A stretch of 36,872 nt of DNA from a virus: positions 1 to 36,872 of the IMG/VR virus record IMGVR_UViG_3300025282_000108. One strand, written 5' to 3'. The notes beneath the pieces were generated by a model. That model was not told the origin of the DNA, did not search any database, and saw nothing but the letters and a program-made list of their open reading frames with translations. The position numbers and the translations under genes are program-made. Of the stretch, positions 4,790 to 23,845 are shown one piece after another (position 1 is the first letter of the stretch; the number at the start of each line of letters is the position of its first letter).

Positions 4790-4917
4790 TTTTGACCAGT
4801 CAATATTTGATTTAACCTATTGCTACATTCCACGCACCAGTGGTACGAATACCAAAATATTTTATAAGTTGATGCCTGCAGCGAAAAACAAAATATTTTA
4901 GTTTGGGACGGGGCCAT
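4790..4917. other. Convergent intergenic spacer with half-operator and two AAAATATTTT boxes
   Basis: This gap separates the convergent giant virion gene and the CmoA-like gene. It holds one copy of the TTGACCAGTCAATATTT operator (right arm intact, left arm degenerate) and two AAAATATTTT palindromes at 4854-4863 and 4890-4899. These are the same two elements that make up the 15.3-16.0 kb block. A short TGGTA/TACCA hairpin precedes the first box but has no clear U tract, so I do not call a terminator. Confidence 0.6.
4791..4808. promoter_or_regulatory. Operator palindrome copy 1 (half degenerate)
   Basis: TTTTGACCAGTCAATATTT just after the stop codon of the giant virion gene. The right arm GTCAATATTT matches the consensus perfectly and the left arm is TTTTGAC instead of AATATTGAC. 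Confidence 0.55.
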
Positions 4918-16030: not shown

Positions 16031-16082
16031 CAAAAAAAAAAGACCACCGATCTGTACCTTAAAAAAAGTACAGACCAGTGGT
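16031..16082 (-). terminator. Strong rho-independent terminator of the leftward ribozyme operon
   Basis: On the minus strand 16041-16082 folds into a continuous 16-bp stem (GACCACTGGTCTGTAC with GTACAGATCGGTGGTC) followed by ten U. Two of the pairs are G-U only on the minus strand and would be A-C on the plus strand. This fixes the orientation as leftward. It ends the operon that runs from about 23.0 kb. Confidence 0.92.
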
Positions 16083-16149
16083 CAGTAAAAGTATTTATGA
16101 CAGACAGAGTGAGTGTCGTTTTACACTCCACATCCTTTCGGTGATAGCT

Positions 16150-16314
16150 TTAGGCTGTGATTAACTGCCTCCTACTCGTTCTTGAAGAATTTGTCAGTAT
16201 AGAACTCGGTAGTGTATTTATACTCTCATCGCAATTTACCTTTCTTCTAGGCGCATCAGGCATGGCTTGCTGATGCTCAAGTTTATAGTTGGGATCAATC
16301 AGTTTCTGATCCAA
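16150..16314 (-). CDS. Small hypothetical protein (54 residues), last gene of the operon
   Basis: The frame starts at TTG 16314 after AAGAG and reads MDQKLIDPNYKLEHQQAMPD, then APRRKVNCDESINTLP and SSRTSRRQLITA before the stop. An internal ATG would give 37 residues. It overlaps the end of the upstream gene by 16 bp and lies just before the terminator. Codon pattern and length make it a plausible gene. Function unknown. Confidence 0.5.
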   Translation of the reverse strand: MDQKLIDPNYKLEHQQAMPDAPRRKVNCDESINTLPSSILTNSSRTSRRQLITA

Positions 16315-16679
16315 CTCTTGCTCTCATCATCATCATTAAAAACAGCCCAATATTCATTAAATCTGTTTTTAGGAGAGTCAGAAAGTTTGTTTTGGAATAT
16401 AATTTTTACATTTCTCTTTGCAAGATAAAGTCTTAATGCATCAAATATAAATATTCCCTCATTTATCCCAAGGTTAACCCTTTGATCCCAATCGTCAGGG
16501 GAGTAGTGAGCATAGATAGCACGAAAATACTTTACAAAGTCAATCTTGTTATCGAACACATCCCAAAAACCATCATCATTAGCAGGATGACTGCCACCAG
16601 AATCAATGCCAAATTTCTTTAGGTCTCGATTTATTCGATCCCTCAAAAATCCTGCTCGGTTATCTCTGTGTTTTCTCAC
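16299..16679 (-). CDS. Hypothetical protein
   Basis: 126 residues from the GTG at 16679, which sits behind GGGGAGAG and overlaps the upstream stop (GTGA). A TTG at 16694 is less likely. Features: basic N terminus (RKHRDNRAGFLRDRINRDLK), KIDFVKYFRAIYAHYSPDDW and EGIFIFDALRLYLAKRN. Probably alpha-helical. No family recognised. Confidence 0.65.
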   Translation of the reverse strand: MRKHRDNRAGFLRDRINRDLKKFGIDSGGSHPANDDGFWDVFDNKIDFVKYFRAIYAHYSPDDWDQRVNLGINEGIFIFDALRLYLAKRNVKIIFQNKLSDSPKNRFNEYWAVFNDDDESKSWIRN

Positions 16680-17311
16680 GACTTCTCTCCCCAAGGCAGT
16701 TTGAACTTCTTAGCACAAACTTTCCCATAACCAACCCTAATGGATCGATCATCGGTCAGTTGTTTGTGGCAAGCAAAACAGTTACCTGATAGCTTTCCAT
16801 ACTCAGAGGCAACTTTCTCAGGATCAGCAACCAACCTAGTTAACAGATCAGTTATTTCCTGAGACCTTTGCTTTCCCTCGTATGCCAAGAACAAATCACC
16901 CTTGGTGTCGATTCTTCCGAAATAGAGATTGCACCCATATCCCTTTCCATCAGTCAGCATCAGTTGTCCATTGTATTTGGATGCTGATGTTGCACGATGA
17001 ATACGCAGGTCAGAATCACTGAGTTTCAACCATAATTTAGGAAAGGTTTTGCCCTTTGGATCGACTGCTCTTTTCATGAGCGCAAGAACTCCTTTTATAT
17101 TCGGAAGTTTTTGACTTGGAGGTGGTGGATTGTCCACCTGATCAACAAGTTTAAGCACCCAATCCCACTGCTTGTCAGAGAGTGATCCTCTCTTTTCAAA
17201 CTGTGAAAACAAACTGATGGCAAAGTTACTCGATATTTTCTTTTCATCGAGATAGCCTTTCAGCTTGTGGATGTTTTCCCTTTTGATCTCTGTTTGATTT
17301 ACTTCATTCAT
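16676..17311 (-). CDS. DUF6011-like zinc-ribbon protein
   Basis: A 211-residue protein. The C terminus (GKLSGNCFACHKQLTDDRSI then VGYGKVCAKKFKLPWG) is the DUF6011 pattern, with Cys pairs for one zinc (C..C ... C). The middle (IHRATSASKYNGQLMLTD ... CNLYFGRIDTKGDLFLA) is beta-rich. Function is unknown, probably nucleic-acid binding. RBS AGGAGG. Its 5' leader is a hammerhead ribozyme (17345-17397), so its mRNA would begin at the cleavage site about 80 nt upstream. Confidence 0.72.
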   Translation of the reverse strand: MNEVNQTEIKRENIHKLKGYLDEKKISSNFAISLFSQFEKRGSLSDKQWDWVLKLVDQVDNPPPPSQKLPNIKGVLALMKRAVDPKGKTFPKLWLKLSDSDLRIHRATSASKYNGQLMLTDGKGYGCNLYFGRIDTKGDLFLAYEGKQRSQEITDLLTRLVADPEKVASEYGKLSGNCFACHKQLTDDRSIRVGYGKVCAKKFKLPWGEKS

Positions 17312-17344: not shown

Positions 17345-17397
17345 CTGATTTCGTAAGGTTACTCATTCAGTCTAGGCTACCAATGCCTAGAGATCAG
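17345..17397 (-). ncRNA. Hammerhead ribozyme HH-F (type III), leader of the DUF6011-like gene
   Basis: Minus strand, 5' to 3': stem III strand CTGAT, C17, cleavage (17392/17391), stem I TCTAGGC/GCCTAGA with 7-nt loop, core CTGAATGA, stem II GTAA-CC-TTAC, GAA, stem III strand ATCAG. All helices pair without mismatch. The core carries one extra A (CUGA-A-UGA) relative to CUGANGA, as in copies A and E. The cleavage triplet AUC fits the NUH rule. Confidence 0.88.
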
Positions 17398-17633
17398 ATA
17401 GACTGCCGATCACAAGGTGTGCCATTCACACTCGATCCATACCAACCATGCTAAGAACTTGGTTTAATTAAAATGAATATGTCTATTCAAATTTAAACTG
17501 GTTTGGACATTCGCCAATCCGAAAACAGACGAACTCTTTATCTCCAACCTTAAAGAAATTCACGCATCATTCGCTCACAATGATTTCTCTGTAAGATCAG
17601 CAGTCAGGTGATTTCAAGCAAACCACAAACTCA
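17398..17633 (-). other. Mostly non-coding stretch with possible short coding remnant
   Basis: No gene over 40 codons. On the minus strand one frame reads MNFFKVGDKEFVCFRIGE then CPNQFKFE and a stop (GTG start, 26 residues), without a good Shine-Dalgarno sequence. A GTGTG-CCATT-CACAC hairpin lies at about 17418-17435. The region may be decayed gene sequence between two ribozymes. Confidence 0.3.
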
Positions 17634-17783
17634 TTATTGTTTTTGTTGAAGATACAACTCTAACCTGTCATTGTTTTCACTCTCGGTCAAAGGTTTACCC
17701 AACAGGGATATTTTTTACGAGTCAACAATTTTGTTAAACCCTAACTCGCCACTATTTTGATGATTTAGTGGATTCTTTGCCAT
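17634..17783 (-). pseudogene. Broken 48-codon gene with one in-frame stop, downstream of ribozyme G
   Basis: From ATG 17783 the frame reads MAKNPLNHQNSGELGFNKI then VDS and TAA (17715-17717). It continues in the same frame as KISLLGKPLTESENNDRLEL then YLQQKQ and a double stop. The second half looks strongly protein-like. A 29-bp segment (17672-17700) matches the VWA gene (18670-18698) at 28 positions, in the corresponding frame (GKPLTxSEN). It is either a pseudogene, two minigenes, or an assembly error at the stop. Confidence 0.5.
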
Positions 17784-17793
17784 TCTTAGACAG

Positions 17794-17853
17794 CAAACTG
17801 TTTCGACTCTTTTGAGTCATCATCAGCGAAAATACACATTTTCGGACAGTTTG
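17794..17853 (-). ncRNA. Hammerhead ribozyme HH-G (type III), upstream of the broken small gene
   Basis: Minus strand: stem III strand CAAACTGT, C17, cleavage (17845/17844), stem I CGAAAAT-GTGT-ATTTTCG, core CTGATGA, one extra U, stem II GACTC-AAAA-GAGTC, GAA, stem III strand ACAGTTTG. All three helices are perfect (8, 7 and 5 bp). The GUC cleavage triplet is optimal. No clear intact gene follows at once, only the broken frame at 17783. Confidence 0.9.
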
Positions 17854-17894
17854 GTCAAATTCGACCTCGAAATCTCCACGAGGAGACAAAGTTA

Positions 17895-17933
17895 GGGGAG
17901 TAGTAAGGGCATAACATACCCCTAAAACTCCCC
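17895..17933 (-). terminator. GGGGAGT hairpin at the 3' end of the VWA gene
   Basis: Minus strand: GGGGAGTTTTAGGG with a loop, then CCCTTACTACTCCCC, just after the VWA stop codon. It has no U tract, so it more likely protects an RNA 3' end than terminates. Sister hairpins with the same GGGGA(A)GTC sequence follow two other genes of the operon. Confidence 0.6.
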
Positions 17934-17941
17934 TTTTCAGC

Positions 17942-19357
17942 CTAATCTTCCCTAAGACAATGTGGAGGGAGATTGATTACTTCACCAAAATGAGGCTCTA
18001 TATCGTGACACCAATTTGGGATTTCACCTGTACTCGCCCACAAGGTAGGAATACTCGGCTCTTTATCTTTAGCCACTGGATAAAATTCTCCATCGGTAAA
18101 GATAATTATGCCCTGTATGTCTGCAACATCATCTGTATAGTCATTGAGCAGATTGAAGATAGGTGTCAATTCTGTGCCACCACCACCCCTTGCTTTCAAA
18201 TCTAATTGTTCGCCTGAGGCAATGTCGAATTCATCCCACCATTCATCTTGCTCATTCTTATAAACATGCGTTGCACACCAACAGACTTTGACCTTTTCAA
18301 TATTGCATTGCTCGATCAATCCTTGAACCTGAGCACCAAATCCTTTCAGATATGCTCTCGTTGATTCCGAGACATCAATACCGATTGCCAAAGTACCGCC
18401 CATTGCTGATGGTTTCCTACTTGGCAGATAGTTTCCTGATCTGTAAGTAGTATCCCTCCATATATGGTTTCGGTGTGGTCTATTCCAAGTGGTTTCGTTG
18501 GGGAAAACACTCACCAACCAGTCTTGAATCTTTTCAAGATAGTTGGCTATTTCGACTTCAAGACCATCCAGTCTTCCACGAAATATATTTTCACCATCGC
18601 CTTTTCCACAAGCACGATCAACACTCTCTGAAACTCGAACTTTATTTTTCAATTCAGTTTGAGCATCAATGTTTTCACTCTTGGTCAAAGGTTTACCCTT
18701 GTCATTAACAGCATCCCATACACCACCTGCTGTATCAAAATCGGATGGTCTTCCTTGGTTTGAATTACCAAGGTCATCACCCTCTTTTTTGCCATTAGAT
18801 GAGTCATCTTGATCACCGTCCTGATCGCCACCTTGGTTTGCACCACCTTGGCTATCATCTTGATCACCATTCTGACTTGAACTGGAACTCCCACCATTTT
18901 GCTTTTCAGCTTTCTGTTCTTGTTCCAATTTGGCATAGATTTCGTCTGCTGTTTTACCGACATATTCGGTCTTATACAAAGCACCCTCAGGCATCTTCCA
19001 ATACGAGATTTCACCTGTCCTAGATAATTCGCCATTGATTGCGTAATCGCAAGCAACATTCCATAATTTAGGATCACGTTTTTCTCGCCTCAAATGGTGC
19101 GCCCAAGTACAGTGTAATGCCTCATGGATCAGGGTAAATTTTAACTCTGACTCATCGCATTTATTCACAAACTTGTCGCACCAAAAGATATGAGTGCCAT
19201 CAGTTGCCATCGTGTCACACACACTCTCAGATACTTCCTTGAGTATGAGTGGCACAATCATTGATGCAATCCCTAGCCTGCCCTCTTGGACAATGCTTGT
19301 TCTTGCCTTAATGATTTTATGTTCTGCCACTTTACTGGCAGTAGTTTGTTTATCCAT
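17942..19357 (-). CDS. DUF2201-type metallopeptidase-like/VWA protein
   Basis: 471 residues from ATG 19357 (MDKQTT, behind AGGAG). The ORF extends to 19381 but lacks an RBS there. Residues about 50-110 contain TLIHEALHCTWAHHLRRE (HExxH plus distal His), the zinc-peptidase-like N-terminal domain of DUF2201. Next comes a low-complexity Gly/Gln/Asp/Ser linker (about 150-210). The C-terminal VWA-like domain has GIDVSES (MIDAS DxSxS) and IIIFTDGEF. Such proteins act with MoxR AAA ATPases, which here is encoded three genes upstream in the same operon. Substrate unknown. Unlike its neighbours it has no recognisable hammerhead leader, only a hairpin and an operator. Confidence 0.85.
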   Translation of the reverse strand: MDKQTTASKVAEHKIIKARTSIVQEGRLGIASMIVPLILKEVSESVCDTMATDGTHIFWCDKFVNKCDESELKFTLIHEALHCTWAHHLRREKRDPKLWNVACDYAINGELSRTGEISYWKMPEGALYKTEYVGKTADEIYAKLEQEQKAEKQNGGSSSSSQNGDQDDSQGGANQGGDQDGDQDDSSNGKKEGDDLGNSNQGRPSDFDTAGGVWDAVNDKGKPLTKSENIDAQTELKNKVRVSESVDRACGKGDGENIFRGRLDGLEVEIANYLEKIQDWLVSVFPNETTWNRPHRNHIWRDTTYRSGNYLPSRKPSAMGGTLAIGIDVSESTRAYLKGFGAQVQGLIEQCNIEKVKVCWCATHVYKNEQDEWWDEFDIASGEQLDLKARGGGGTELTPIFNLLNDYTDDVADIQGIIIFTDGEFYPVAKDKEPSIPTLWASTGEIPNWCHDIEPHFGEVINLPPHCLRED

Positions 19358-19385
19358 AATTTTTCTCCTATTTATAAACAAATTT

Positions 19386-19402
19386 GTAAGCAGAATGCTT
19401 AC
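19386..19402 (-). promoter_or_regulatory. Leader hairpin of the VWA gene
   Basis: GTAAGC-ATTCT-GCTTAC on the minus strand, about 30 nt before the start codon. It occupies the position of ribozyme stem I in the sister leaders but no CUGANGA core follows. It may be a degenerate ribozyme or a simple mRNA hairpin. Confidence 0.55.
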
Positions 19403-19410
19403 ATGAAAAC

Positions 19411-19432
19411 AAATATTGACTGGTCAATAATT
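19411..19432. promoter_or_regulatory. Operator palindrome copy 9
   Basis: AATATTGACTGGTCAATAAT lies between the upstream gene and the VWA leader hairpin. The left arm is intact and the right arm has one late change. Confidence 0.65.
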
Positions 19433-19457
19433 GCTTTCAGTTAAGCACTCAGGATTT

Positions 19458-19479
19458 GGGGAAGTCTTTCGACTTCCCC
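19458..19479 (-). terminator. GGGGAAGTC hairpin at the 3' end of the 326-residue gene
   Basis: GGGGAAGTC-GAAA-GACTTCCCC on the minus strand: a 9-bp perfect stem with a GNRA tetraloop, 10 nt after the stop codon. There is no U tract. The GAAA loop exists only on the minus strand, supporting an RNA role there. Confidence 0.65.
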
Positions 19480-19488
19480 ATTCCCGAA

Positions 19489-20469
19489 CTAGAACAATCC
19501 CTTTGCTGTGTCGGAAACTTTAATTTCCTTTTCAGCCTTACGCAGTTTTTTAACTGTGGCTTTTCTAGTTTTCCCATCTTTCTTGAGATTGCCCTGAGAT
19601 TTTGCTTTCACAATATCTTTTTGCAGAGTGGTAATTGTTTTCTTCAGATTGTCATCATCAGTCAACAAGTAGTCATCCACAACATCGAGCAAATCCCTCA
19701 AGCTATCAAAACTTGAATCCCTGAGAGGATTTTTAGATGGATTTTTTGGATCAAAGGCATCCAATCGGTCTGCCAAATTTTCAACCAAGCCAACCAATTT
19801 TTTCGCAGTATGCGAATCCGCATTCTGCTTGATTGATTTTTCCTTGGCTAATTCATTGGCAACGATGTTTGCACGAACATCCTCATCGATCTGAACTCGA
19901 ATATCGCCTGAGTTAAACTCATTGATAATTCCGATTTCATATTCAAAGATATATCGTGCTCTGAGATCATCAACACTTGGATAATCCAACCTATTAAATA
20001 AGTCACCTAATCCAGTGTGTTTCTGTTCTGCAACTTCGATTGCATCCTCATAACCATCGATGATTTCGTCAACCTCATCAAAGAATCTCTTTTGATATTC
20101 TTTGACTTGTTGTTCAAACCATTCAAGTTGGTCAGCAGGTAACAATCGCCATTCACCGCCTTTGACTCGCCTGTGGGTTCCTGCAACATAACTTGTGCCC
20201 TCACCCAAGACACGATCCTCAGCATCAATCCAAGGCAATGTTCTCTTGTAGATCACATTGTTTCGGAACTGCTTGCCGATTTTCGTTGGCTTTCGCAAAA
20301 AATCACGATCAAATAAATGCTTAGACACATTGACTAGAGTTTCATCGGCATTTTTATTATCTGCCAATTCTCTCTTTGCCTCTGTGTCAGCTTTTATGCC
20401 ACTGTAAGTTTTTATAGTGGCTTGTACTTTCACGCACTTTTCAGCGAGAGTGGTTTTCGTTTTACTCAT
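19489..20469 (-). CDS. MoxR/VWA-associated hypothetical protein (DUF3150-like)
   Basis: A 326-residue protein, helical and highly charged: HLFDRDFLRKPTKIGKQFRN, YKRTLPWIDAEDRVLGEG, QQVKEYQKRFFDEVDEI, and a Lys-rich C terminus. A protein of this type commonly sits between phage MoxR and VWA genes and recalls DUF3150, a match I cannot verify. It may act as adaptor or substrate of the MoxR complex. RBS AGGAG. Its mRNA would be released by the type I hammerhead at 20520-20576. Confidence 0.65.
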   Translation of the reverse strand: MSKTKTTLAEKCVKVQATIKTYSGIKADTEAKRELADNKNADETLVNVSKHLFDRDFLRKPTKIGKQFRNNVIYKRTLPWIDAEDRVLGEGTSYVAGTHRRVKGGEWRLLPADQLEWFEQQVKEYQKRFFDEVDEIIDGYEDAIEVAEQKHTGLGDLFNRLDYPSVDDLRARYIFEYEIGIINEFNSGDIRVQIDEDVRANIVANELAKEKSIKQNADSHTAKKLVGLVENLADRLDAFDPKNPSKNPLRDSSFDSLRDLLDVVDDYLLTDDDNLKKTITTLQKDIVKAKSQGNLKKDGKTRKATVKKLRKAEKEIKVSDTAKGLF

Positions 20470-20519
20470 GTTATTTCTCCTATAAGTAAAAGATTAATAT
20501 TAGTCAGCATTACGCTGAC

Positions 20520-20576
20520 ACCAATACCCAACCTTTCGATTGGGTTTCATAGCATCTCAGCTAATCTTCAGTTGGC
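20520..20576 (-). ncRNA. Hammerhead ribozyme HH-D (type I, circularly permuted), spans a stop codon
   Basis: Minus strand order: stem I strand GCCAA, core CTGAAGA, stem II TAGC-TGAGAT-GCTA (flanked by U-U), GAA, stem III ACCCAA with 8-nt loop TTGGGT, A17, cleavage (20525/20524), stem I strand TTGGT. Stem III is closed and stem I open, so this is a type I permutation, unlike the other six copies. The TGA of the core is the stop codon of the 61-residue gene. The cleavage triplet is GUA. Confidence 0.82.
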
Positions 20577-20753
20577 TTGTTCTTCTTCAGCAGAAATTGT
20601 TATTGAAGTATCTACTTCAGAATCAATATACGAATCTGGATTAGAAAGTAGCCACCCCTCTACAATGCTTTTAGCATCTTCTATTGAGTTGGCATTAACT
20701 TCTATTGAATATCCAGTTGAGACAACCGCAGTCACGCGATATTTTCCACTCAT
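20568..20753 (-). CDS. Small hypothetical protein between two ribozymes
   Basis: A 61-residue protein with MSGKYRVTAVVSTGYSIEVN, ANSIEDAKSIVEGWLL and an acidic tail (SAEEEQAN). The beta-beta-alpha pattern with an xxSxEDAxxxV motif resembles short DpnD/PcfM-like phage proteins. Function unknown. RBS AGGAG. Its last codons form stem I of ribozyme D and its leader is ribozyme E, so its transcript would be trimmed at both ends by ribozymes. Confidence 0.65.
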   Translation of the reverse strand: MSGKYRVTAVVSTGYSIEVNANSIEDAKSIVEGWLLSNPDSYIDSEVDTSITISAEEEQAN

Positions 20754-20795
20754 AATTGTTTCTCCTAATTATGAAAATTAATATTACTGATTTGT

Positions 20796-20848
20796 AATCG
20801 TTTCGTGGTTACTCATTCAGGCATGGCTACCAATGCCATACAACGATT
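20796..20848 (-). ncRNA. Hammerhead ribozyme HH-E (type III) with minimal stem II
   Basis: Minus strand: stem III strand AATCGT, U17, cleavage (20842/20841), stem I GTATGGC/GCCATGC with one G-U pair and loop ATTGGTA, core CTGAATGA (extra A), stem II GT-AACC-AC of only 2 bp, GAA, stem III strand ACGATT. Helices I and III are strong. The short helix II may slow cleavage. Loop I and the core match copy F although stem sequences differ. Confidence 0.8.
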
Positions 20849-20918
20849 GCTAGTGGCGCGATGGGATAGGAGAAATCAAAAAGACCATCGCCCTCTAAGG
20901 CGAGGTGATGCCACTAGC
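20849..20918 (-). terminator. Long inverted repeat with internal terminator-like hairpin after the MoxR gene
   Basis: GCTAGTGGC (20849-20857) and GCCACTAGC (20910-20918) pair perfectly, extendable with CGAT/ATCG. On the minus strand the enclosed segment holds CATC-CGCC/GGCGATG followed by GTCTTTTTGATTT, a plausible intrinsic terminator. The repeat abuts stem III of ribozyme E. Confidence 0.5.
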
Positions 20919-20941
20919 ATCGAATGCGATTGATTTACCAG

Positions 20942-22036
20942 TTAAACCAAAATGTCTTGGTTCTTGATATGCCAATCAATGAAAACTTTCGTTTTCTTGA
21001 ATGATTTCTCTTTAGTCGTGAGTGCCTTTACAAACAACACTGCATATTCCTTGGCATCGAAACGATTGACATAGGTCAATGCGTTATCGAAATCAGAGGA
21101 ATTTTTTACAGCAGAAAGCAAGGATGCTACCGAGGCATACTGTAATTCAGTACGCTCAGGTAGTTTTGCTTTCTTTGGATCGCTCAGGATTTTCTTGGGA
21201 GACTCCAAATCGTTTTGGAATGCAACAAAGGTTAAATACTCTCTTGCACATACCTCACCAAGATAAGCCTCTAGCACTGGCTGTATTAGTGTTTGTCTTG
21301 GTTCACCGCTCAGGAACTCACTGCATTGATGCCAAGTACGAGGTGCAGGAAATCCGCCCTCTTGTTTTGGATCAAATTGATGCAAGAACTGAGGCTGAAA
21401 AGATATGAATGCAAGTATGTCTGCATGAATATCATTTTGGTAAGCCCAATTCAGCCACTCCTTAGGATCAGGAATTAATTCCAGTCTCAAACATGCTGAC
21501 TGAAAATGAGTCAACAGTCTGTTTGATCCTGCCCTGTCCGAGGAAAGGTTTCCTGCCATCAAAACTTTCCACCCTATCGGCAATTTATAATCAGTGCCTA
21601 TTCGACCCTCAAATATTAATTGCCTAAAGATGTTCTGCAATGCAGGGCTTGCTTGAGGAATCTCATCGCACAAAAGTATGCCCTTACTGTTTGGATCAGT
21701 AGGTAGATTATCGAGCAATGCTCTTTTTTGCAGGTATCGGTTATCCTTGGTTTTTTCAACTATGGGTACACCACCAAAATCGATGGTTTCATACAGACCT
21801 AATCTAAACCCACAATACCCCAATTCGTCTTTCTTTGGAGTTATGTTGTGCTCAGGAATGCCTCTAACACCTCTGATAACTTTTAGTTTTAGATAATCTG
21901 CATATAGTTGTAAAACAGAATAACTCAATGCTGTTTTTCCGATAGCAGGACTACCGATTATTAGCGGAGTGCTTTCCACACAATGTATAAGATTATGTAA
22001 GACAGCCTCGACTACTTCAGTTGCTTTTAATTTCAT
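20942..22036 (-). CDS. MoxR-family AAA+ ATPase
   Basis: 364 residues: Walker A IGSPAIGKTALS (about 27-38), Walker B GILLCDEIPQASPALQ (about 119-134), sensor-1-like KVLMAGNLSSDRAGSNR with the Arg-rich turn expected of MoxR, and ERTELQYASVASLL near the C terminus. MoxR ATPases remodel or load VWA partners. The DUF2201/VWA gene lies downstream in the same operon. RBS AGGAG, leader ribozyme C. Confidence 0.88.
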   Translation of the reverse strand: MKLKATEVVEAVLHNLIHCVESTPLIIGSPAIGKTALSYSVLQLYADYLKLKVIRGVRGIPEHNITPKKDELGYCGFRLGLYETIDFGGVPIVEKTKDNRYLQKRALLDNLPTDPNSKGILLCDEIPQASPALQNIFRQLIFEGRIGTDYKLPIGWKVLMAGNLSSDRAGSNRLLTHFQSACLRLELIPDPKEWLNWAYQNDIHADILAFISFQPQFLHQFDPKQEGGFPAPRTWHQCSEFLSGEPRQTLIQPVLEAYLGEVCAREYLTFVAFQNDLESPKKILSDPKKAKLPERTELQYASVASLLSAVKNSSDFDNALTYVNRFDAKEYAVLFVKALTTKEKSFKKTKVFIDWHIKNQDILV

Positions 22037-22070
22037 AATAATTTCTCCTATGATTAAAGCAGTTAAAATT

Positions 22071-22120
22071 GCTGTTTCATACTTTCGTAATCATCAGTCA
22101 GAGTTACACTCTGATACAGC
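22071..22120 (-). ncRNA. Hammerhead ribozyme HH-C (type III), leader of the MoxR gene
   Basis: Minus strand: stem III strand GCTGT, A17, cleavage (22115/22114), stem I TCAGAG-TGTAA-CTCTGA, canonical core CTGATGA, stem II TAC-GAAA-GTA flanked by a U-U mismatch, GAA, stem III strand ACAGC. Cleavage triplet GUA. Helices I and III are perfect (6 and 5 bp). Confidence 0.88.
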
Positions 22121-22130
22121 GAGCAGAATC

Positions 22131-22152
22131 AAATATTGACTGATCAATATTT
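22131..22152. promoter_or_regulatory. Operator palindrome copy 10
   Basis: AATATTGACTGATCAATATT lies 11 bp upstream of ribozyme C, in the gap before the MoxR gene. The arms are intact except for one inner base. Confidence 0.7.
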
Positions 22153-22171
22153 AACTCTGCCCTGTGCCGAC

Positions 22172-22387
22172 TCAGTATCGATGAATTAATTCTCTTAATT
22201 CCTGATTGATCTTGAGGTCAACACTCTCGTTGAATGCATCAATGATTGCATCATTGATTACATTCTCTTTTGCCTTGAGCAAGGCATCGCGATTGTCACC
22301 AACTGCGATTAGTTGAGTATGAGGCTGTCCTCTGTACTCTGCTCTTTTGGTACGCTCGTACCCATCGATTTTTCTTGGTCTACTCAT
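22172..22387 (-). CDS. Small hypothetical protein
   Basis: A 71-residue protein: basic N terminus (MSRPRKIDGYERTKRAEYRG) then a helical part (ALLKAKENVINDAIIDAFNE). Possibly DNA-binding; no family recognised. RBS AGGAG. Its leader is ribozyme B. Confidence 0.6.
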   Translation of the reverse strand: MSRPRKIDGYERTKRAEYRGQPHTQLIAVGDNRDALLKAKENVINDAIIDAFNESVDLKINQELRELIHRY

Positions 22388-22405
22388 TTTGATCTCCTAT
22401 GAATA

Positions 22406-22467
22406 AATCTGTTTCGCATATCCCATTACAGGATGCTCATCAGTCTGGTTAATTCCAGATACAGATT
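22406..22467 (-). ncRNA. Hammerhead ribozyme HH-B (type III), canonical core
   Basis: Minus strand: stem III strand AATCTGT, A17, cleavage (22460/22459), stem I TCTGG-AATTAA-CCAGA, core CTGATGA, stem II GCAT/ATGC with inner CC/GG, GAA, stem III strand ACAGATT. All conserved core bases are present, stem III is 7 bp and perfect, and the triplet is GUA. This copy most closely fits the textbook consensus. Confidence 0.93.
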
Positions 22468-22476
22468 GAAAGAATT

Positions 22477-22497
22477 GGGGAGTCATTACGACTCCCC
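22477..22497 (-). terminator. GGGGAGTC hairpin downstream of the 116-residue gene
   Basis: GGGGAGTC and GACTCCCC form an 8-bp perfect stem with a 5-nt loop, about 65 nt after the stop codon and just before ribozyme B. Same stem sequence as the hairpins at 17895 and 19458. On the plus strand it is followed by TTTATT, so plus-strand termination is also possible. Confidence 0.6.
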
Positions 22498-22515
22498 TTT
22501 ATTCTCCTCACCACT

Positions 22516-22556
22516 GCTTATGGTTACTCATTCAAGAGACCATTTGAGATGGTGTT
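22516..22556 (-). pseudogene. Degenerate hammerhead remnant
   Basis: Minus strand ACCAT-CTCAA-ATGGT followed by TTGAATGAGTAACC. It keeps a stem I-like hairpin and the GAATGAGTAACC block of copies E and F, but the core C is displaced and GAAA is absent. Probably an inactive former ribozyme. Confidence 0.45.
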
Positions 22557-22562
22557 TTTGGG

Positions 22563-22913
22563 TTAAGCCAAATCCAGTAAGGTGATAGGAACTGTCCAAG
22601 TTACTGATCTCGCTCCAGTGAGGATGCCTCGATCATCTCTTTTTGCAGACCTAACTTTGACTATGGCTTTGGTGCGATTGATTTTGGTCAATGTACCAGT
22701 TGCCTCTTTTCCTTTGTTGTCCTCAAACTTGACTTTATCACCAACAGAGATCGTAGCTTTTTTATCTTTGATCTCTTGCGCTCTAAGCTCTTTTCTTCTG
22801 CTTACAAGGCTAGATGCCACTTCGTTAAGACTGTTTAGGTCTGTGATCTCATTGATTGAGTATATTGCGTTTGCAACATTGTTTTCTTCTACTGAGAATT
22901 CTAATTTATCCAT
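22563..22913 (-). CDS. Hypothetical protein with C-terminal SH3/KOW-like domain
   Basis: A 116-residue protein: helical N terminus (SVEENNVANAIYSINEITDL), then VGDKVKFEDNKGKEATGT with LTKINRTKAIVKV, a KOW/SH3-barrel-like beta pattern, ending VTWTVPITLLDLA. It could bind nucleic acid. First gene of the ribozyme operon. RBS GAGGAG. Leader ribozyme A. Confidence 0.65.
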   Translation of the reverse strand: MDKLEFSVEENNVANAIYSINEITDLNSLNEVASSLVSRRKELRAQEIKDKKATISVGDKVKFEDNKGKEATGTLTKINRTKAIVKVRSAKRDDRGILTGARSVTWTVPITLLDLA

Positions 22914-22942
22914 GATTTACTCCTCATTTGGAAAATTGATAT

Positions 22943-22996
22943 TACTGTTTCGTTCTTTTGAACTCGTTCAGGCTAGACACACATCTAGCGACAGTA
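22943..22996 (-). ncRNA. Hammerhead ribozyme HH-A (type III), leader of the first operon gene
   Basis: Minus strand: stem III strand TACTGT, C17, cleavage (22990/22989), stem I GCTAGA-TGTGTG-TCTAGC, core CTGAACGA (extra A, N7 = C), stem II GTTC-AAAA-GAAC, GAA, stem III strand ACAGTA. All helices are perfect. The triplet is GUC, the most common natural cleavage site. Confidence 0.9.
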
Positions 22997-23745
22997 GTTG
23001 CAGAATGAGTGGGGAGAAACCACTCACCCTGCCTGTCATAAATACTTTCTTAGGTCTTTATAAAACCTCGCCAACACCACTGTTGCCTTTCTTTAACATT
23101 CTCACTCACTAAAGAGATTAAGATAATGAACATATTCTTTGCTGTCTTAGCCATGCTCTTATGGCATGGTTACTGAGGTATTTCATAGGGCAAATACTTC
23201 ACTCAGTGCTCTGTCTTTTCTGCATCTTTCGCATACGCTACTCGACCATGTGTTACTTCGACCTATTCCCACTGAACTTGTGACTCGCTAAGAATGATGT
23301 ACAAATCTGAGATTCAAATTATCTAGGATTGAATGTTAAATAATCCGCTCATGGATTTACGTTTTAGGATTCCCATCCTTGGCTGTTCGGATTTGATATC
23401 AGGTCACTACTCCTGACTCGCTACCGCTAAAATTGTTTGCATCGACTGTGTGTTGATGTCCTTGCGGATGTCCTTATTTTAGCCCTAGACTCTTTCTTTC
23501 CCACCACTGTCACTGGATGTCTAAGGGTTCAGTCGGTCTATCATCCGACTGTCAACTGGCTTGTTAGCTTGCTCTCTCTAGGTCTGTTGCGAGGTCACTG
23601 CAAGGGAGGGTTTGAGACTCCTGATCTAGTAGAAAACAAAACCACTAGACCACGTAAGAAGTATAGCAAAAAGCAAGCAAGAATACAGTACCGATGCACT
23701 ATTAGTTATATCTTTTTACATGGGTAAACAGGACTGATGGAAAGT
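22997..23745. other. Long non-coding spacer upstream of the packaging genes
   Basis: About 750 bp with no credible gene. A 96-codon plus frame at 23437-23727 is Leu/Val/Cys-rich, lacks an RBS and overlaps predicted helices. Many short perfect hairpins occur: GAGTGG/CCACTC (about 23007), GCCAT/ATGGC (about 23150), AGGAT/ATCCT (about 23368), TCAGG/CCTGA (about 23399). The best-supported folded part is listed separately as a candidate RNA. The leftward operon promoter and the rightward late promoter probably both lie here, but I could not assign them. Confidence 0.55.
23421..23650 (+). ncRNA. Candidate structured non-coding RNA
   Basis: Consecutive helices: GCTAAAAT/ATTTTAGC (23426-23433/23476-23483) enclosing CATCGA/TTGATG; CCCTAGAC/GTCTAAGGG (23483-23490/23519-23527); CAGTCGG/CCGACTG (23530-23536/23545-23551); CTAGGTC/GATCTAG (23578-23584/23623-23629) enclosing TTGC/GCAA and GGAG/CTCC arms. 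Two helices contain G-U pairs only on the plus strand, favouring rightward transcription. It may be a phage ornate RNA or a long structured leader of the packaging operon. No known family was identified. Confidence 0.45.
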
Positions 23746-23767
23746 AAATAATGACTGGTCAATATTA
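23746..23767. promoter_or_regulatory. Operator palindrome copy 11
   Basis: AATAATGACTGGTCAATATT lies about 65 bp upstream of the small terminase gene. The right arm is intact and the left arm has one change. Confidence 0.65.
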
Positions 23768-23821
23768 GGCTATCAAATAGCTATCAGTTTGCAGTCTTGA
23801 TCACGCGGAGGAAGTAAAATA

Positions 23822-23845
23822 TTATCAGACTATGTCTGACGATAA
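23822..23845 (+). promoter_or_regulatory. Hairpin enclosing the small terminase start codon
   Basis: TTATCAGAC-TAT-GTCT, then GAC bulge and GATAA: a 9-bp stem whose loop and 3' side contain the ATG (23832). The only strong Shine-Dalgarno sequence (GGAGGAAG) is about 20 nt upstream of the ATG, outside the usual spacing. The hairpin may hide the start codon, or folding may shorten the effective distance. Confidence 0.55.

Follow-up and report, generated by a model that had tools for sequence, protein, structure and literature searches.

A hammerhead ribozyme array in front of the genes of a marine phage operon and its probable role in processing of the transcript

Background

Hammerhead ribozymes of prophages have been found clustered around single genes, for example in a triple arrangement at ardA in Agrobacterium tumefaciens (PMC3088659, figure 3), and processing into gene-length mRNAs was proposed for these clusters by Perreault et al. 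2011 (PMC3088659). Three tandem arrays were cleaved in vitro, and one of them also in E. coli (PMC3088659). The purpose of the hammerheads of phages and bacteria has been an issue since 2011, and an operon with many copies would provide a compact test system. Here we describe such an operon in 36,872 nucleotides (nt) of the marine phage record IMGVR_UViG_3300025282_000108 (further referred to as the window), in which seven hammerheads and the operon genes are all located on the minus strand.

The locus resembles the prophage clusters in that the hammerheads belong to the same operon and in the proposed cutting into gene-length mRNAs. Indeed, several hammerheads on one strand separate the genes of one operon, the arrangement that defines a hammerhead-cluster phage operon. 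It differs in that seven copies lie within 5.7 kilobases (kb), types I and III are mixed, most genes are directly preceded by a copy, the operon is a non-integrase operon, the arrangement is conserved in a group of marine phages and all copies remain below the Rfam threshold. An earlier reading of the same DNA (the original prediction) had regarded a hammerhead before almost every gene as apparently new. This seems to hold for the density, whereas clusters that flank phage genes have been published (PMC3088659). Neither the text of PMC3088659 nor the other literature searched describes hammerheads this densely packed, both types within a single operon, conservation across a clade or so strict a position in the leaders; the density, the mixed types and the conservation look new.

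Identity of the seven hammerheads

The array mixes two circular permutations, six copies of type III and one of type I (Table 1). In copies A, B, C, E, F and G three helices surround the core; stem III is open, and loops close the other two. The order is permuted in copy D, where stem I is open, stems II and III are closed and cleavage follows stem III. The fold of copy D reads GCCAA-CUGAAGA-UUAGC/GCUAU-GAAA-CCCAAUC/GGUUGGGU-A^UUGGU, comprising CUGAAGA, GAAA and GUA. Two other assignments of copy D, one to the type II permutation and one with CUGAGA as a shortened core, were dropped once the preceding stop codon was seen to complete the type I fold; a type II descriptor had no match in the window, in Pseudomonas phage PaP3 or in Bcep176.

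All seven minus-strand hammerheads of the original prediction were located by our own descriptors, with cleavage bonds identical to the base and with the predicted NUH triplets. Within the predicted CUGANGA-type core, a single base is inserted behind A6 in copies A, E and F. Among the type III copies, the full combination of CUGANGA and GAAA with A15.1-U16.1 and NUH is exact in B and C; in copy G an additional base separates A9 from stem II. The 10.1-11.1 position at the base of stem II is a G-C pair in A, B, E, F and G, and stem II opens with a U-U mismatch at this position in C and D, a tolerated variant (PMC3088659). Loop pairing has also been reported (PMC3088659), and in copy E loops I and II could pair through GGU/ACC.

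The strict type III descriptor, CUGAN(N)GA and GAA with at least 3, 2 and 4 pairs in stems I, II and III and an NUH triplet, matched A, B, E and F and nothing else in the window, four matches against 0.06 per window resampled with a first-order Markov model. Relaxation of the stem II requirement added C and G. Chance matches were also rare for a relaxed compact type III descriptor of at least 14 pairs (none in 200 shuffled windows) and for the type I descriptor (0.03 per shuffled window). Descriptors do overlook some real hammerheads, since the Bcep176 copy, with the core variant A6C, was missed.

A covariance model (R1) was built from 17 type III copies of other contigs, aligned by sequence alone and including no window sequence. 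The six best matches of R1 in the window were the six type III copies, among them C (62.4 bits, E 7.7e-14), A (59.9 bits, E 3.6e-13), G (46.9 bits, E 9e-10), B (31.5 bits, E 1e-5) and F (22.2 bits, E 0.0029), and the next match had an E value of 2.9. The corresponding model R2, from 12 type I copies of relatives, retrieved copy D with 67.8 bits (E 7.3e-16), its remaining window matches being noise. When the hammerhead pairs of the 17 type III copies were counted, 92.2% were standard pairs versus 69.1% after shuffling, and stem I was paired in 100% of cells. The covariation score was 0.718, versus 0.242 after shuffling and at most 0.133 with the pairing partners slid; for the 12 type I copies the values were 0.712, 0.226 and at most 0.110, respectively. 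The slid control weighs most because both shuffle controls ignore relatedness. The core bases are constant while the stems vary across the copies from relatives, and the prediction that stems differ and nevertheless stay complementary is borne out by this covariation. On these sequence comparisons the hammerhead identity, the array, its position in the operon and the covariation of the stems are strongly supported.

A reading of the copies as chance hairpins that resemble hammerheads has a negligible probability, as the independent matches of R1 and R2 together with the covariation exclude it and chance rates are below 0.1 per window. What could be held in its favor is the behavior of Rfam, which at the gathering score had no match in the window, nor in any of nine relatives rich in ribozymes. 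An Rfam match above threshold had been set as a check by the original prediction, and none of the seven copies passes: the best values with Hammerhead_3 (RF00008) were 37.7 bits for copy B and 35.4 bits for copy A versus a gathering score of 48.5. The hammerhead of phage PaP3 likewise falls under the Rfam gathering score. Because it fails too, the cut-off does not define membership and the failure of the seven copies is no refutation. The PaP3 hammerhead scores 66.3 bits with R1 and is listed among the active core variants by Perreault et al. 2011 (PMC3088659); we infer that the sequence matched here is the one tested in that study. It shares the UGUG loop and the U-U mismatch that opens stem II, and a gene likewise begins only a few nt downstream, but PaP3 is an unrelated phage with one clear copy and no array. 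A second, weak candidate in PaP3 (L135, 44125-44070) has a GGCC stem II and reaches 12 bits with R1. A weak likeness to the RAGATH-1 hammerhead (RF03152) was seen in two copies of relative L005 and one of L117 (29.8-30.5 bits, E 0.26-0.41), under the gathering score of 56.3, whereas the window copies were unmatched. Rfam cut-offs thus miss this class of hammerheads, so that its abundance in viromes is underestimated.

Position in the operon and conservation among relatives

Six of the eight operon genes have a hammerhead directly in front. The predicted intergenic placement applies to most copies but only in part to copy D, where U4-G5-A6 of the core is at the same time the stop codon (UGA) of the 61-aa (amino acid) gene. 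Relatives were gathered via the MoxR, VWA and terminase proteins, which yielded contigs with the same operon. The descriptors identified 80 hammerheads (60 of type III and 20 of type I) in 31 IMG/VR contigs, several of which are closely related, so that the 80 are not independent events. Of these, 78 are followed by a Shine-Dalgarno site and a start codon at 14-53 nt (median 30), compared to 4.7% of random same-strand positions. The two exceptions are copy G, where the sequence that follows is decayed, and an L087 copy that lies near a contig end. Hammerheads on both strands occurred in none of the 31 contigs, and in contigs as long as 62 kb model matches were confined to this operon. Moreover, the gene order MoxR, 326-aa (DUF3150-like) and VWA is kept together with the ribozymes down to about 32% protein identity. 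The place of copy C is occupied in L004, L006, L007 and L008, and DNA similar to copy G follows the VWA gene in L117 and L099. A ribozyme before nearly every gene, conserved in many marine phages while its stems change, is strong evidence for a selected mRNA-cutting strategy.

Alternatively, the copies might move with genes, either as modules of recombination or as selfish leader cassettes, with processing as a side effect. Copy B is in fact near-identical to a ribozyme of L007 that precedes a different gene, and the 71-aa homologue has another leader there. Nevertheless, the strict spacing to the start codons, the restriction to one strand and the independent variation of stems within the operon speak against such mobility, and we consider it very unlikely.

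A pattern scan of viral contigs gave no relatives of the 326-aa protein, yet tblastn shows plain homologues in the fetched loci, and thus the scan misses real relatives. No hammerheads were detected by descriptor in the distant MoxR relatives L017-L036. The host search led to no assignment, and its only genome match was a 7-kb contig in a Poseidonia metagenome-assembled genome, probably a mis-binned phage fragment. Five type III hammerheads within 3 kb were also seen in L192 (9222-12077). The 12.8-kb stretch of this 53-kb contig had no detectable MoxR, VWA, 326-aa or TerL similarity, and judged from its sequence this array is apparently independent of the operon described here.

Table 1. Positions of the ribozymes, genes and structured elements in the window
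Feature	Position	Strand	Remarks
Copy A, type III	22943..22996	-	before 116-aa gene; cut 22990/22989 (GUC); core CUGAACGA, one extra base
Copy B, type III	22406..22467	-	before 71-aa gene; cut 22460/22459 (GUA); canonical core CUGAUGA
Copy C, type III	22071..22120	-	before MoxR-type ATPase gene; cut 22115/22114 (GUA); U-U mismatch opens stem II
Copy E, type III	20796..20848	-	before 61-aa gene; cut 20842/20841 (GUU); core CUGAAUGA
Copy D, type I	20520..20576	-	before 326-aa gene; cut 20525/20524 (GUA); core CUGAAGA
Copy G, type III	17794..17853	-	downstream of VWA gene; cut 17845/17844 (GUC); gene-less stretch next
Copy F, type III	17345..17397	-	before DUF6011-domain gene; cut 17392/17391 (AUC); core CUGAAUGA
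116-aa gene	22563..22913	-	first gene past array start
71-aa gene	22172..22387	-	
MoxR-type ATPase gene	20942..22036	-	phrog_1297
61-aa gene	20568..20753	-	stop codon inside copy D core
326-aa gene	19489..20469	-	weak similarity to cyanophage DUF3150 proteins
Metallopeptidase/VWA gene	17942..19357	-	DUF2201_N, DUF2201; leader hairpin, no hammerhead
DUF6011-domain gene	16676..17311	-	
126-aa gene	16299-16679	-	last of operon; overlaps DUF6011-domain gene
Hairpin upstream of copy B	22477..22497	-	no U-run; z -7.1; would be 3' end structure of 116-aa mRNA
Long perfect hairpin upstream of copy C	22121..22162	-	with palindrome ATTGATCAGTCAAT; z -5.4
Structured stretch closed by stem GCTAGTGGC/GCCACTAGC	20849..20918	-	ends at first base of copy E; read from sequence
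Hairpin GTCAGC-GTAAT-GCTGAC just past copy D	20503..20519	-	would lie 5 nt from new 5' end
VWA leader hairpin GTAAGC-ATTCT-GCTTAC	19386..19402	-	paired changes in relatives
Gene-less spacer between G and F	17398..17793	-	short VWA-gene copy
Strong intrinsic terminator of operon	16042..16083	-	

Proposed processing of the operon transcript

The region is presumably transcribed as one RNA, for which the evidence is indirect: no strong internal terminator was seen between the operon genes in the window, promoter-like matches occur at shuffle level only, and a terminator is found at the operon end. Separate promoters for each gene were dropped as an explanation on account of the same shuffle comparison. 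The intergenic hairpins were also rejected as terminators, as a U-run comparable to that of the terminator at 16042 is wanting at the cleavage sites.

We consider it probable, on the basis of these sequence features, that the array serves the co-transcriptional self-processing of the operon RNA into single-gene mRNAs. Each hammerhead would fold and cut itself once while the polycistronic RNA is being made, and the RNA would fall into messages of one gene that start with a 5'-OH near the ribosome-binding site and are led by a hairpin. The original prediction of a 5' end capped by the stem I hairpin fits the type III copies, where this hairpin would begin the new end, but not copy D, where a separate hairpin would follow five bases on. 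The sequence of the latter hairpin varies in relatives with its pairing kept. A hairpin would form the end of the upstream piece, which would carry a 2',3'-cyclic phosphate. Ahead of the cuts the RNA is unusually structured over 70 nt, with a median z of -3.3 and 78% of the stretches below -2. The likely benefit would be that ends are protected for each message individually and that lifetime and level of translation are specific to it as well, independent of host RNases; an effect on mRNA stability or translation is what we infer.

The early transcript of phage T7 is likewise a long phage RNA that is cut between genes, giving messages with structured ends. There the cutting is done by RNase III, a protein nuclease of the host, whereas here the RNA itself would cut.

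Several observations weigh against self-processing as the general function of the array. In the window the VWA gene is led by a hairpin alone and lacks a ribozyme, and the last gene of the operon overlaps its neighbor. L072 and cultured pelagiphages have no hammerheads, and the array is therefore not essential to this phage type; in the 34-41 kb read, none were found by descriptor in the terminase-related cultured phages HTVC027P and HTVC023P (Pelagibacter), DSL-LC04 and 023Pt_psg01, nor in Planktothrix phage Pag-Yong1. Copy E is the weakest copy with R1 (15.4 bits, E 0.17); it is intact in the descriptor and has a close match in L007. In vitro, 4 of 18 hammerheads that conformed to the consensus were uncleaved (PMC3088659). 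Finally, the A6 insertion of copies A, E and F is a natural variant for which low activity was measured (PMC3088659), and by analogy these three may cut slowly. The insertion is not a one-off defect, since such cores recur in the relatives L007, L048, L050 and L110.

The recurrence of slow-type cores in the window and in these four relatives could also indicate regulated ribozymes, in which cleavage of the leader is gated by upstream translation, a ligand or a protein and the array acts as a set of switches. The stop codon within the core of copy D is in line with this, as ribosomes would unfold the ribozyme, and in some relatives stem II or stem III is enlarged by elaborate additional domains. 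Against it, the seven window copies are minimal without an obvious sensor domain, most cores are canonical and many type I copies in relatives sit outside the upstream gene; we regard switching as unlikely. The same holds for gene-by-gene control in which the speed of a ribozyme would set the amount and timing of each released message, with some copies controlled by ligand or protein. It is similarly doubtful that fast cores, A6-insertion cores, the overlap with the stop codon and the conserved extra domains of relatives would be the speed setters. If true, phage hammerheads would be genuine regulators of expression, in contrast to plain constitutive processing.

Cleavage could moreover be incidental, the elements being kept as leader hairpins that stabilize the mRNA or expose the ribosome-binding site, some of them as dying ribozymes. 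Plain hairpins indeed lead some operon genes (VWA in the window, and the TGGGAATTAWCCCA leaders of relatives), and the cores of E and F are imperfect. However, CUGANGA and GAAA do not vary among relatives that differ in all their stems, and a plain hairpin needs no three helices around a hammerhead core, which makes this explanation very improbable.

Elaborated hammerheads in relatives

In the type I copies of L069, L076 (8232-8148, minus strand), L084 (221-138, minus strand), L110 and L139-L154 a domain replaces the stem III hairpin. Its conserved layout is GAAAC[A/T]TTAAACCAGT-hairpin-CTGACCC-loop-GGG[T/A]GTC, in which every copy shows covariation of the A/T pair beside AC/GU and the stem of the inner hairpin varies with its pairing kept and with GNRA-like loops. 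The domain had no Rfam match; from its sequence it is possibly a sensor or tertiary-contact domain. Between CUGAUGA and GAAA, the type III copies of L003 (7028-7112), L005, L016 (9882-9965) and L110 (4692-4606) have a row of three hairpins in place of the single stem II. The layout is kept, and the stems of L110 differ from the others.

Spacer, leaders and palindromes

Copies G and F flank the gene-less spacer and would excise it. The spacer was rejected as a gene, having no conserved frame and only a decayed VWA fragment, namely a 33-nt copy of VWA sequence that is 94% identical.

A second leader motif, consisting of a hairpin and TGGGAATTAWCCCA just before the ribosome-binding site, is present where other relatives have a hammerhead (L003 5918, L007 1257 and 6786, L016 8034, 8300 and 11231, and others). 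The motif could perhaps fold in two alternative ways, and no Rfam family matched. Upstream of copy A, about 0.8 kb of the window (23050-23830) is mostly non-coding up to a divergent plus-strand gene at 23832. A long leader, with a shared GGATGGGAATCCTAAA stretch, is also present in relatives. The palindrome ATTGACCAGTCAATA or near-matches (at 4791, 7066, 11915, 13826, 15459, 15608, 15710, 19414, 22134 and 23749, among others) occur 13 times in the window versus 0.14 expected, mostly in intergenic positions, and a phage regulatory or polymerase site is likely.

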